Shown: positions 13,169 through 25,435 of the stretch, one piece after another
Layout of the letters: each line of letters opens with the position of its first letter
Numbering within the stretch: the first letter of the stretch is position 1
Virus record (IMG/VR): IMGVR_UViG_3300021959_000337
Location: 1-25,875 of that record
Reading direction: 5' to 3' (one strand)
Origin: a virus
Length of the DNA: 25,875 bases
Made by a program: the position numbers and the translations under genes
The notes under the pieces: generated by a model
Told to the model about the DNA's origin: nothing
The model's database searches: none
What the model saw: the letters and a program-made list of their open reading frames with translations, nothing else

Positions 13169-13741
13169 ATGCCATTAGGTGCAGCAAGATTTGGACTTCT
13201 TGGTGGAGTTGCAGATTTAGGCAAATTAGAATTAATTGAAACTCAAACTGCAAGTGGAACTGTAGAATTTATTGAATTTCTTGATTTACAAGAAAGTACA
13301 TATAATGTTCATTTATTAACTGTTAATAATTTACATTTAGCAAATAACAGTAGCTTGGTGCTAAGTCGGTTCTCAACTAATGGTGGAACTAGTTATATCA
13401 ATACAGGTTATCAATATGCACAACAAAGGTGTCAAGCAAATGGAAGTTTTGCAGAAGATAAATCAGCAGGAACAAGTAGTTTGCAATTTGTATATTTTGC
13501 AGGAAATGGAACAGGGGAAACTTGTAACTTTTATGCTTACTTATATAACTTAGGGGACAACACAAAATATAGTTTTGTAACAATGCACAATAATTATATG
13601 ATAAGTGGTGTTCAAATTAGTTCTTTTGGAAGTGGAGTTTTAGCACAAGCAAATACAGTTAATGCTTTTAGGTTGCAATCAAATGTAACTGACAACTTTA
13701 CAGATTATGACATATCCCTATATGGAATTGCAGAGAGTTAG
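13169..13741 (+). CDS. Receptor-binding-type protein, paralogue A
   Basis: First of three tandem genes of similar layout: a short N-terminal segment, a core ending near residue 50 with 'Y(D/N)V(Y/H)' (here STYNVHLLTVNNLHL), a middle with 'NNG..F' type loops, a strand block with FYAYLYN and YSFVTMHNNYM, and a final IDYDISLYGI-like strand ending in YDISLYGIAES. This layout is common in tail tip or receptor-binding proteins of marine phages (recognised by pattern). 190 residues. TAGGAG overlapping the previous stop is its ribosome site. Likely contacts the host surface. Confidence 0.68.
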   Translation: MPLGAARFGLLGGVADLGKLELIETQTASGTVEFIEFLDLQESTYNVHLLTVNNLHLANNSSLVLSRFSTNGGTSYINTGYQYAQQRCQANGSFAEDKSAGTSSLQFVYFAGNGTGETCNFYAYLYNLGDNTKYSFVTMHNNYMISGVQISSFGSGVLAQANTVNAFRLQSNVTDNFTDYDISLYGIAES

Positions 13742-13744
13742 ATT

Positions 13745-14275
13745 ATGGCAGGTAATTTAGAATTTATAAAATCTGTTAGTGGAACTTCTGTTACTTCATT
13801 AACAGTAACAGATTGTTTTAGTGCTGATTATGATGTGTATTATGTATCAATTACTAAAATTGACCAATCAGCAACAGGAACAGGTATAGTTTATAGATTT
13901 TTAGACAGTTCTAATACTGCTATAACAAGTGCAAGTTATGACCAAGCAACTTTAGTTATGAAATCAAATACAACTTTTTCTGAAAGTAGAGGAACAAATG
14001 CAACTTATGGATTTGGTGCAGTAGGTTATGGAATTAGAGATGCAGAGGATGGAGTAGGTGCAAGTATTTATGTTTATAATCCTTATGACAGTTCCTCTTA
14101 TAGTTTTGTTTCTGCACAAAATAGTTTTATTGTTCTTGCAGGAACAACTTTAGAGGGATATAAAAATATAAGTGTTTTAAAATCTGCACAACAATGTAAT
14201 GGTATTCAATTTTTAAATGAAGCAGGAAGTTTTGACAATATCACAGTTAATGTATATGGATTGGCTAGTAATTAG
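13745..14275 (+). CDS. Receptor-binding-type protein, paralogue B
   Basis: Second of the three tandem paralogues, 176 residues. Shared positions are FSADYDVYYVSITKI near residue 30, a middle with SASYDQATLVMKSNTTFSE, a strand block IYVYNPYDSSSYSFVSAQNS and a final FDNITVNVYGLASN. It starts three bases after the previous stop. No cysteine pairs or catalytic residues. Divergence from the other two copies is large, which fits host-range variation in a fibre cassette. Confidence 0.66.
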   Translation: MAGNLEFIKSVSGTSVTSLTVTDCFSADYDVYYVSITKIDQSATGTGIVYRFLDSSNTAITSASYDQATLVMKSNTTFSESRGTNATYGFGAVGYGIRDAEDGVGASIYVYNPYDSSSYSFVSAQNSFIVLAGTTLEGYKNISVLKSAQQCNGIQFLNEAGSFDNITVNVYGLASN

Positions 14276-14283
14276 GAGTAATA

Positions 14284-14832
14284 ATGGCAGGTAGCTTAAT
14301 AAAGGTTGATGAATTTACAATATCAAGTCCAGTAGCAAGTGTAATTCTTGGTGGTGGAAGTAGTGGTAGTAGTGGATTAAATGCTTCTATTGATAGCACT
14401 TATGATGTGTATATGGTTAAGATAAATGGTTTATCTCCTGATACTGCTGAAAATTTAGAGTGTAGAGTTACAGAGGGTGGAAATGATAACTCAACTGCTA
14501 ATTATGATTGGGCAGCTAAAGGTTTAAAAACAAGTGGTGCTTTTGATAATAACAATAATACTAATGCTACACAATGGGATGTGTCAGGTAGCTTTATAAA
14601 TGCAACAACAGGAAATTTTAATGCAATTATATACATTTTTAATGCAAATAATTCAGGGGAATACACATTTATTACTTTTGAAACTTCACATTATTCAGGT
14701 AGTGAGCATTATGGAAATCAGGGTGGTGGTGTATTTACAAGCACTTCTAGTGTTGATGGATTATTTTTTCAAATTGATAGTGCAAATAATATTGATAGTG
14801 GAACATTCACTTTATATGCTTTAAAGAAGTAA
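14284..14832 (+). CDS. Receptor-binding-type protein, paralogue C
   Basis: Third tandem copy, 182 residues. It begins with MAGSLIKVDEFTISSP and a Gly/Ser-rich loop (GGGSSGSSG), then STYDVYMVKINGLSPDTAEN, which aligns by eye with paralogue B (ADYDVYYVSITKI). The later part repeats the plan (FNAIIYIFNANNSGEYTFITFE, then SGTFTLYALKK). AGGAG sits before its ATG. Tandem multiplication of a tip protein suggests alternative or hetero-oligomeric receptor binding, which is inference. Confidence 0.66.
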   Translation: MAGSLIKVDEFTISSPVASVILGGGSSGSSGLNASIDSTYDVYMVKINGLSPDTAENLECRVTEGGNDNSTANYDWAAKGLKTSGAFDNNNNTNATQWDVSGSFINATTGNFNAIIYIFNANNSGEYTFITFETSHYSGSEHYGNQGGGVFTSTSSVDGLFFQIDSANNIDSGTFTLYALKK

Positions 14833-20901: not shown

Positions 20902-21619
20902 TTTTATTGGTAGCGAATACGAATTTACATTTACAATAGTGCCACATTGGTTGTTAGAAGTGTTAAAACCACTTGAACTAGCAACCTACGTAGCATTAGG
21001 TCAATATGCAGATAATAAAACCAAAGAGTGTTGGCCAAGTGTATCTAAATTAGCTGAAGATATTGGTAGATCTAGGCAAAGCACCATAAAAGCACTACAA
21101 GGACTAGAGGATAAAGGCGTTATTGAAGTAAAACAACGTTTTAAAGATAAAGGCGAACAAACAAGCAATCTTTATATCCTTAAATTAACTAGGGGGGTGT
21201 CAAGAAAACTTGACAGGGGGTGTAAAGAAAACGTTACAGGTAGGGGTATAGAAAACTTTACACGAACTATATCCAATATAACTATATCCAATGAACTATA
21301 TTTTGACACCTACGACAAAGAAAAACAAAAAGAATATGTTGATTTGCTGGTAGATGTATTTAATTTAACTAACATAACCAAAAATAAATGGGGACAGCTT
21401 TACAATACGGCTAAACAGCTATTTGAAGCAGGTGTTTATCCTAATCAAATACCGTTGTTGGTCAAAAATTGCGTATTAACCTATGGCGAAAAATACACCA
21501 CAGTAAACAGCATTTTAAATCATACAGAATTACTTAATGGCGTAAAAAATAAATCAGCAGATGATATTAAAAAGCTAATTGATCAGAAAGCATTACAAGA
21601 TTGGGCAAATGATAACTAA
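20885..21619 (+). CDS. Replication initiator (O-like, winged helix) with internal origin
   Basis: A 244-residue DNA-binding protein. Residues 25-100 form a winged-helix domain (LELATYVALGQYADNKTKEC, WPSVSKLAEDIGRSRQSTIK, ALQGLEDKGVIEV) like phage replication initiators and MarR/GntR-type readers. Residues 103-126, a low-complexity linker, are encoded by three iteron-like palindromes (21192-21262), followed by AT-rich repeats. The C-terminal domain (about 145-240) is helical and would contact the loader or helicase. A wHTH domain, iterons inside the gene and a separate C-domain copy the plan of lambda O. The initiator role is inferred from this arrangement; no enzyme motif is visible. Confidence 0.75.
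   Translation: MTEEIDFIGSEYEFTFTIVPHWLLEVLKPLELATYVALGQYADNKTKECWPSVSKLAEDIGRSRQSTIKALQGLEDKGVIEVKQRFKDKGEQTSNLYILKLTRGVSRKLDRGCKENVTGRGIENFTRTISNITISNELYFDTYDKEKQKEYVDLLVDVFNLTNITKNKWGQLYNTAKQLFEAGVYPNQIPLLVKNCVLTYGEKYTTVNSILNHTELLNGVKNKSADDIKKLIDQKALQDWANDN
21192..21304 (+). repeat. Candidate replication origin: iterons plus AT-rich repeats
   Basis: Three G-run-preceded palindromic units: TGTCAAG-AAAA-CTTGACA (21198-21215, perfect), TGTAAAG-AAAA-CGTTACA (21221-21238), and GGTATAG-AAAA-CTTTACA (21245-21262, degenerate left arm), with starts 23 and 24 bases apart, about two helical turns. Then ACTATATCCAAT twice (21266-21277 and 21281-21292) and a third partial AACTATATTTT (21294-21304), an AT-rich unwinding-like tract. 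All lie in the coding frame of the initiator. Confidence 0.75.
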
Positions 21620-23440: not shown

Positions 23441-23487
23441 TATTTTAAATACTGTATCTATGTAAACGGAACTTGTATTTAATAGTA

Positions 23488-23512
23488 AAACCCCACAAAC
23501 AGTGTGGGGTTT
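23488..23512 (+). terminator. Intrinsic terminator-like hairpin (weak T-run)
   Basis: AAACCCCACA (23488-23497) and TGTGGGGTTT (23503-23512) pair over ten bases with a five-base loop. The following bases are GCTATTGTTATTG rather than T's, so termination may be weak or the hairpin may act otherwise. Confidence 0.7.
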
Positions 23513-23526
23513 GCTATTGTTATTGT

Positions 23527-24177
23527 ATGACGTGGCAAAACAGGGCGTTGTGCAAAGATATGCCAACACAATTATTCTTTCCTGGTACTGATGAACGTAC
23601 TGATAAGCAATATTGGGAAACGCATAGTATATGCCGTGATTGTCCAGTAAATTTACAATGCTTATTATTTGCACTAGATGAAGATTTAGAATATGGATTA
23701 TATTGCTTACCTGAACGTGTAAGACGTAGATTTAAAACAAAACCACCAGCTGATATTAAAAAAACAATGCAAGAAACATTTACCACAATAGATATTATTG
23801 AAGCTGAATTTGATTATCACGGTAAGCTAATTAAAAAACGTTGCTTACGTTGTAATCGTAAAACACGTGGCTTTTATAAAGATTATGAAAATTGGGGTGG
23901 CAAAAGTCATATATGCGTTAGTTGTCATATAGAAATACAAAATAACAAGCAAGTAGATAAATTACTTGATCGTGAAAAACCTAGCAAATCAAGACCAGAG
24001 TTTGATAGCTATGGACAGTTGGTAAGTAAATGTTGCACTAAATGTGGCAAAAGAAAGATAGCTGATGAATTTAGTAAAAGACCACAAGGCATTGGTGGTA
24101 AAACAAGTTGGTGTAAAGCGTGTACAAGAAAAAATTTAGAATTATGGCAACAAAAACAAAATAAAAAGGTAAAGTAG
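23527..24177 (+). CDS. WhiB-family regulator fused to duplicated zinc module
   Basis: Residues 1-70 are a WhiB/Wbl domain: Cys9, Cys36, Cys39 and Cys45 (C-x26-C-x2-C-x5-C) for a [4Fe-4S] cluster, then EYGLYCLPERVRRRF in the place of the usual GVWGG turn and basic helix. WhiB proteins are transcription factors specific to Actinobacteria and their phages, some binding the sigma factor. Residues 92-134 and 157-199 are two copies of one zinc module (EFDxxGxLxxxxCxxC... GGKxxxCxxC), with Cys106/109/130/133 and Cys169/173/196/199. Start ATG 23527 lies seven bases after an extended -10 (TGC-TATTGT, 23512-23520), consistent with a leaderless transcript; no ribosome site is visible. A Wbl fused to paired zinc modules is unusual. 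Confidence 0.82.
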   Translation: MTWQNRALCKDMPTQLFFPGTDERTDKQYWETHSICRDCPVNLQCLLFALDEDLEYGLYCLPERVRRRFKTKPPADIKKTMQETFTTIDIIEAEFDYHGKLIKKRCLRCNRKTRGFYKDYENWGGKSHICVSCHIEIQNNKQVDKLLDREKPSKSRPEFDSYGQLVSKCCTKCGKRKIADEFSKRPQGIGGKTSWCKACTRKNLELWQQKQNKKVK

Positions 24178-24192: not shown

Positions 24193-24738
24193 ATGGATTT
24201 ACCAAATAAAAAATACAAGATTATATACGCAGATCCACCGTGGTCTTATGGTGCTTGGTCAGATAAAAGTAGTGGAAATGGTTTAGCTGCTAAACATTAC
24301 AAAACAATGACCAATCAAGATATTTGCGAACTTAAAGTAGAAAATTTAGCAGAAAAAGATTGTGTATTATTTATGTGGGTTACTTATCCACATTTACAAA
24401 CAGGTTTAGATGTTATCAATGCGTGGGGATTTACATTTAAAACAGTCGCATTTACTTGGATTAAAAGACATAAAAATAACGAGTACTGCAAAGGTTTAGG
24501 ATATTGGACTAGGTCTAATGCTGAAATATGTTTATTAGCAATAAAAGGATCACCTAATAAATACGTTATTGACAGATCTGTAAGTCAAATAATAGATACT
24601 GTAAGAGAAAAACATAGTAAAAAACCTGATGTTGTACGTGAACGCATAGTACAACTGTTAGGCGATTTACCACGTATAGAATTGTTTGCTAGACAAACAG
24701 CAGACGGTTGGGATAGTTGGGGTAATGAAGTTAATTAA
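24193..24738 (+). CDS. MT-A70 family DNA N6-adenine methyltransferase
   Basis: A 181-residue MT-A70 type enzyme. The catalytic DPPW is at residues 14-17 (YKIIYADPPWSYG), and later conserved blocks are CVLFMWVTYPHL, FKTVAFTWIK, YWTRSNAEICLLAIKG and PRIELFARQTADGWDSWGNE. It has AAAAGGAG before ATG 24193. Target site unknown. Second methyltransferase of three; overlaps the third by 14 bases. Confidence 0.92.
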   Translation: MDLPNKKYKIIYADPPWSYGAWSDKSSGNGLAAKHYKTMTNQDICELKVENLAEKDCVLFMWVTYPHLQTGLDVINAWGFTFKTVAFTWIKRHKNNEYCKGLGYWTRSNAEICLLAIKGSPNKYVIDRSVSQIIDTVREKHSKKPDVVRERIVQLLGDLPRIELFARQTADGWDSWGNEVN

Positions 24739-25435
24739 TAAAGACTTTAAAGAAGCTAATTGGCCAAAAGAAATACAAACTTTAATAGTTGATCCACCAT
24801 ACAATATAGGATTTAATTATAAAGGTGGTTATAAAGATAATTTAAAAAAACACGAATATGAAACATTAATATATGAAATGCTGTTAAAAAGTTATGAAAA
24901 TATAAAAGATAATGGATCATTATTTATAATTAATTATCCTGAAATAATTGCTAATTTATTTATAACAATAGAACATACACAATGGCAATTTCATCAATGG
25001 ATTAATTGGGTATATCCAGCAAATATAGGCTTTAGTAATCAAAAGTTTACACGTGCAAGTAGGTGTATATTGTGGCTTACAAAAGGAAATCCAAAAGTAT
25101 ATATAGATCGTGTTACACAACCTTATAAAAATCCTAATGATAAGCGTATTAAACAACATATAGCTAATGGTCGTAATGGGACACATCTTTACGATTGGTG
25201 GGAAGTTAATTTAGTAAAAAACGTAAGCAAACAAAAAAACAATTATACAAATCAAATACCAGAAGAAATACTTAAACGTTTAATACTTACTACTACTGAT
25301 GAACAAGATTTAGTAGCAGATCCTATGTGTGGTACAGGCAGTACGCTAATTACTGCTAGTAAACTAAATAGAAATGGTTGGGGTTGTGATATTAACAGCG
25401 ACTTAAAAGAACTATGGGATAGTTATACATATTAA
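24725..25435 (+). CDS. DNA methyltransferase (N4/N6, DPPY, beta class)
   Basis: Third methyltransferase. Start ATG 24725 (236 residues) is chosen over an in-frame ATG at 24686, which lies in the MT-A70 gene. DPPY at 23-26, then the AdoMet-binding motif DPMCGTGSTL at 199-208, again the beta-class order. Between them lies TRASRCILWLTKGNP. Its arginine codons include CGT, unlike the methyltransferase at 1070, so it looks native to this genome. No restriction partner, so a self-protection role is likely. Confidence 0.9.
   Translation: MKLINKDFKEANWPKEIQTLIVDPPYNIGFNYKGGYKDNLKKHEYETLIYEMLLKSYENIKDNGSLFIINYPEIIANLFITIEHTQWQFHQWINWVYPANIGFSNQKFTRASRCILWLTKGNPKVYIDRVTQPYKNPNDKRIKQHIANGRNGTHLYDWWEVNLVKNVSKQKNNYTNQIPEEILKRLILTTTDEQDLVADPMCGTGSTLITASKLNRNGWGCDINSDLKELWDSYTY

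Follow-up and report, generated by a model that had tools for sequence, protein, structure and literature searches.

A candidate theta-type replication origin in the linker codons of a winged-helix initiator gene from a metagenomic phage

The window analysed here, a 25,875-base metagenomic virus record that is probably incomplete, carries a cluster of iterons followed by an AT-rich repeat tract in the codons for the disordered linker of a winged-helix initiator, and this stretch is constrained as DNA (Table 1). Judged from the sequence and from analogy with characterized systems, the segment is very probably the theta-type replication origin of the phage, located inside its own initiator gene and functioning through binding, melting, and recruitment. 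By analogy with lambda, SPP1, and pSK41, winged-helix dimers would bind the three iterons, the resulting initiator-iteron complex would melt the adjacent AACTATATCCAAT AT repeats, and the C-terminal helical domain, carried on a flexible linker, would recruit host replication proteins. The first-pass annotation of this DNA had proposed an origin within the initiator gene, a proposal now supported by repeats at the same place in homologues and by a very strong DNA-level constraint. The internal-origin layout is already well known and the phage adds another case, probably in Actinomarina phages, providing a concrete candidate replication origin for the phages of uncultured streamlined marine bacteria.

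Table 1. Coordinates, in the window, of the initiator gene, its domains, and the elements of the proposed origin
Feature	Position	Strand	Basis or detail
Replication initiator gene, HTH_36 winged-helix type, 244 aa	20885..21619	+	Pfam and PHROG profile matches
Winged-helix DNA-binding domain, residues about 16-101	20930..21187	+	Pfam match to residues 27-78; pLDDT about 66-84
Disordered inter-domain linker codons, residues 102-143	21188..21313	+	pLDDT under 50, near 30 (AlphaFold2)
DNA-constrained segment, codons 103-138, proposed origin	21191..21298	+	Synonymous difference 0.019, against 0.316 outside the segment
Iteron 1	21193..21215	+	G-run and perfect 7-4-7 palindrome TGTCAAG-AAAA-CTTGACA at 21198-21215, 7/7 arm pairs
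Iteron 2	21216..21238	+	G-run and imperfect palindrome at 21221-21238, 6/7 arm pairs; codon frame differs from iteron 1
Iteron 3	21240..21262	+	G-run and imperfect palindrome at 21245-21262, 5/7 arm pairs
Candidate DNA-unwinding element	21264..21307	+	AACTATATCCAAT at 21265 and 21280, partial AACTATAT at 21295, period 15; stability; synonymous difference 0.009
C-terminal helical domain, residues 145-243	21317..21613	+	Model; exchanged between phages

The initiator protein

The N-terminal part of the product matches HTH_36 (PF13730; 49.1 bits against a cut-off of 25, E 5e-13), and the 244-aa product as a whole matches the PHROG profile for replication initiation proteins (E 1.7e-17) and PHROG profiles named O-like (E 7e-12). 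In Pfam, neither Phage_rep_O (PF04492) nor RepA_N (PF06970) matched the initiator at E values up to 1, and the C-terminal domain DnaB_2 (PF07261), present in L071, L230, and L238, gave no match in the initiator of the window; no sequence relatives were found in the PDB. An AlphaFold2 model predicts a winged helix at residues about 20-99, disorder across residues 102-143, and helices from residue 145, in agreement with the earlier placement of the repeats between the winged helix and the C-terminal domain. Fold comparison of the winged helix returned the N-terminal domains of RepA_N proteins (4pql, 4pt7, and 5kbj; Z 9.7, 9.5, and 8.7, respectively), though unrelated winged helices score alike. 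Modelled alone, the C-terminal domain forms five helices with fair confidence; it matches no Pfam family, its best fold match is to unrelated AAA domains (Z 5.5), and no DnaD or RepA C-terminal domain occurs in its list of PDB fold matches. By analogy, it is the probable replisome-recruiting part of the protein. Of the window genes scanned, none was recognised as encoding a polymerase, a helicase, or a helicase loader.

Anatomy and distribution of the repeats

The repeat architecture had been described as three 18-base palindromic units, one of them perfect, each preceded by a G-run and starting 23 and 24 bases apart, with two full and one partial AT-rich 15-base repeats on their 3' side; the coordinates and arm pairing obtained here agree with that description for both elements. 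When the gene was recoded 1000 times with its peptide preserved, the triple-repeat score never reached the observed value of 29 (maximum, 27; 0/1000), while a single palindrome equally good arose in 17 of the 1000. Based on nearest-neighbour stability, the least stable 44-base interval of the gene starts at 21264, on the AT repeats and adjoining the 3'-most iteron, and across the whole record only 4.9% of 44-base intervals fall below the interval at 21263 in stability. When up to three mismatches were allowed, the iteron motif occurred in the window only at its three sites, with no second iteron site found, and in the viral collection the exact iteron pattern is confined to contigs carrying the initiator gene. 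GC skew across the window has no sign change and gives no origin signal, but it is uninformative because all of the genes lie on one strand. The window contains two DnaA boxes, fewer than expected by chance, and none near the proposed origin. Points that weigh against the origin reading are the imperfect palindromes of iterons 2 and 3, a C-terminal domain with neither a fold match nor a Pfam match, and a neighbourhood in which no helicase loader was recognised.

Repeats occupy the linker position in all 21 full-length relatives of the first homologue set and are present in homologues ranging from 88 to 33% identity. The first-pass annotation had named homologues without repeats at this place as evidence that would tell against an origin; every close homologue with a full linker has repeats there. 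In a second clade the units, three or four in number, are spaced 24 bases apart, follow a shifted consensus (AGTAAAGAAAACTTAACT), and are accompanied by similar AT repeats. In the more distant L057-L061 (33-36% identity), inspected by eye, the repeats are weaker and contain CTAG, and the tract includes AACTATA.

Constraint on synonymous sites

Synonymous differences were determined by aligning the window with 12 homologues 65-88% identical to it, 13 sequences in all. At codons for the same amino acid, they amount to 2.3% in codons 103-128 (the iterons) and 0.9% in codons 129-140 (the AT repeats), compared with 33.5% and 28.9% in the N- and C-terminal parts outside the segment, respectively. 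No other run of 36 codons in the gene is as atypical as codons 103-138, which have the most unusual codon usage of the 208 runs compared and retain codons that are otherwise rare in the phage, such as TCC, GGG, and GTG. Linker repeats together with a dip in synonymous change offer a simple means of locating origins in phages known from metagenomes.

A segment of this kind could instead have no role as an origin and act as an operator, bound by the initiator within its own gene or by a repressor, or as an attenuator whose RNA hairpins stop or delay expression. Folding of the segment as RNA is mildly better than that of shuffled sequences in the window (z -2.4) and more clearly so in two relatives (L015, z -3.7; L020, z -3.4), but the predicted structures vary from one relative to another and are missing in L005 (z -0.2). 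Arm pairing also decays in units 2 and 3, where some homologues have only 3-4 of 7 pairs left, while the core GT..AG-AAAA-C...ACA persists. As neither an operator nor an RNA element explains the AT-rich repeats, constrained still more than the iterons, or the fixed pairing of the segment with initiator genes, such a role is very unlikely.

Exchange of the C-terminal domain

Relatives that share a winged helix can differ sharply beyond the linker. Between the window and L005, identity is 90% in the winged helix compared with 46% in the C-terminal domain, L015 and L017 share 93% and 48%, respectively, and trees of the N- and C-terminal parts disagree. The switch point between relatives is the end of the proposed origin segment, the exchanged part being 21299-21619 in the window; L005, L015, L017, L045, and L053 are the other sequences concerned. 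Based on these sequences, the DNA-binding domain stays linked to its putative binding sites when the C-terminal domain is exchanged, which suggests how phages change replisome partners with initiator and origin staying matched. The swap parallels the plasmid initiator pPR9 Rep, whose N-terminal domain is of the same Pfam family (PMC5703833).

The position of the switch point raises the possibility that the segment serves chiefly as a recombination joint, or as some other cis site such as one for partition or packaging, and is conserved for that role, given that close relatives exchange C-terminal domains at its end. Shared origin DNA serving as homology would easily explain such exchange, however, and the gene is an initiator, with lambda, SPP1, and pSK41 all having proven origins at the same place, making this alternative highly improbable. 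L045 and L053, almost identical in their N-terminal parts, differ in both C-terminal type and iteron number.

One DNA repeat read in several frames

Because iterons 1 and 2 lie 23 bases apart, they are read in different codon frames (TCA AGA AAA CTT GAC and AAA GAA AAC GTT ACA, respectively). In a distant family (L062-L065), GGTATC...GATACC repeats occur in all three frames, encoding GGINLIP, EVSKQYP, and GYQNDT. The same repeat DNA is thus read in different frames while synonymous sites are nearly frozen, so that it is DNA that is constrained; the linker peptide probably arises as a tolerated by-product of the origin sequence, a clear example of a protein segment dictated by a DNA site. Two earlier expectations about the peptide need revision. 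The palindromes had been thought to encode a repeated RG-containing linker, when in fact the RG comes from the G-runs (AGG GGG/GGT) and the palindromes, read in two frames, give VSRKLD as against CKENVT and IENFT, with no single repeated peptide. Further, conserved iterons had been forecast alongside a drifting linker peptide; within the close clade neither drifts, DNA and peptide being frozen together. Although RG and KEN-T motifs recur inside the linker, the idea that a repeated basic peptide was selected for the protein, with the DNA similarity incidental, is scarcely credible given the nearly frozen synonymous sites, the rare codons that are kept, and the different peptides that result from the same DNA in two or three frames.

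Relation to known internal origins

The arrangement that had been likened to lambda O does hold at the level of layout and not at that of sequence. In lambda, four annotated iterons followed by an AT-rich tract lie within O (PMC7466680), and ori-lambda and the window share a mid-gene array of inverted-repeat iterons of 18-19 bp with an AT-rich tract after them (PMC7466680), whereas the window has three iterons and its AT tract consists of 15-base repeats; no sequence homology to lambda O was found (hhalign probability, 0.6%). In SPP1, the direct repeats bound by the initiator and an AT-rich unwinding element (oriL) are within the initiator gene 38 (gp38; PMC6316719), and the window likewise has repeats and an AT-rich element inside its initiator gene, but SPP1 differs in possessing a second origin, oriR, and a phage-coded helicase loader and helicase, while no second site was found in the window.

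The staphylococcal plasmid initiators, pSK41 RepA_N and pPR9 Rep, have a winged-helix N-terminus, binding sites central in the rep gene, a linker encoded by the origin, and a variable C-terminal domain (PMC5703833), a plan that the window shares with putative binding sites and a proposed origin. In pPR9 Rep, an N-terminal PF13730 (HTH_36) domain, described as phage-like, is joined to the pSK41 C-terminal domain (PMC5703833). These are plasmids of Firmicutes, however, and the window differs in that its C-terminal domain is without a Pfam match and its initiator without a RepA_N match. For pSK41, the linker peptide is reported to be dispensable. Among phages with HTH_36 initiators, phi31.1 Orf269 (Lactococcus), Laroye gp88 (Arthrobacter), and Pavtok gp51 (Erwinia) also carry linker-codon repeats with an A/C-rich or AT-rich repeat tract after them, but differ in their C-terminal domains and, except for phi31.1, have unrelated iteron sequences. 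The iterons of phi31.1 orf269 (L242; GGGGGTATTAAAGAAAAC) are similar to the window iterons although the hosts are very different.

Inferred host

No named phage is similar to the window at the DNA level. One relative sits in a contig from a Candidatus Actinomarina single-cell genome. The window also encodes a WhiB-like protein (23473-24177) that points to an actinobacterial host and whose C-terminal part matches restriction-alleviation/endonuclease VII PHROGs. The single-cell contig, the WhiB gene, and the low G+C together suggest that the host of the phage is Actinomarina.

A possible shared motif in the unwinding element

Most of the distant HTH_36 initiators surveyed carry linker repeats that are unrelated in sequence, including those from phages of Arthrobacter, Microbacterium, Parageobacillus, Pseudomonas, Halomonas, Erwinia, Serratia, Klebsiella, Clostridioides, Lactococcus, and others. 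The same holds for prophage-like genes in Actinomycetota. Three short proteins without a linker (L072, L073, and L076) were uninformative for the repeat survey. Not all HTH_36 matches in Actinomycetota genomes are initiators, and several of the exceptions look LexA-like by eye. Gordonia Daredevil, PFR1, and ShowerHandel match mainly at the C-terminus, with no convincing HTH_36 domain.

In many of the surveyed initiators, the iterons are followed by a coding-strand tract with AAC-containing repeats. When all 5-mers were compared over the 300 bases that follow the winged helix, AACTA ranked first for occurring twice at a distance of 10-16 bases. An AACYA pair is present in 7 of 25 families compared with 0.56 expected from dinucleotide shuffles (0/500 as high), and in 7 of 28 compared with 0.96 expected from peptide-preserving recoding (0/400 as high), counts that include one representative of the Actinomarina group, concern a motif noticed before it was tested, and may cover a few distantly related families. 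The pair never occurs on the opposite strand in the 25 families. The sites are at 21265-21302 in the window, at about 3025-3065 in L062, and in the linkers of L069, L071, L074, L228, and L237, and some of the spacings change codon frame (14 bases in L071). The strict AACYA form is absent from most of the families surveyed.

It is possible, if on the whole doubtful, that HTH_36 phage initiators share a grammar for the unwinding element, consisting of a strand-specific AACYA every 10-16 bases just 3' of unrelated iterons and kept across phages with unrelated hosts. If so, AACYA would have a common reader, for example a host factor or whichever part of the initiator keeps hold of the opened strand, and would be of use in marking such origins in raw sequence. 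This regularity is the part of the analysis that could be new, and is offered as a lead. A longer form, GAACTA three times at period 15, was rejected as an origin marker; at least 102 viral-contig loci were analysed and, among the matches listed, eight were in winged-helix genes, seven of these belonging to one close family.

Other genes in the window

Three consecutive open reading frames at 13169-14832, each encoding 176-190 aa, resemble by eye tandem related tail or fibre proteins. Near the right end, genes for an MT-A70-like protein and an N6/N4 methylase overlap (24193-24738 and 24686-25435), and another open reading frame (1070-1807), methylase-like by eye, lies beside the terminase.
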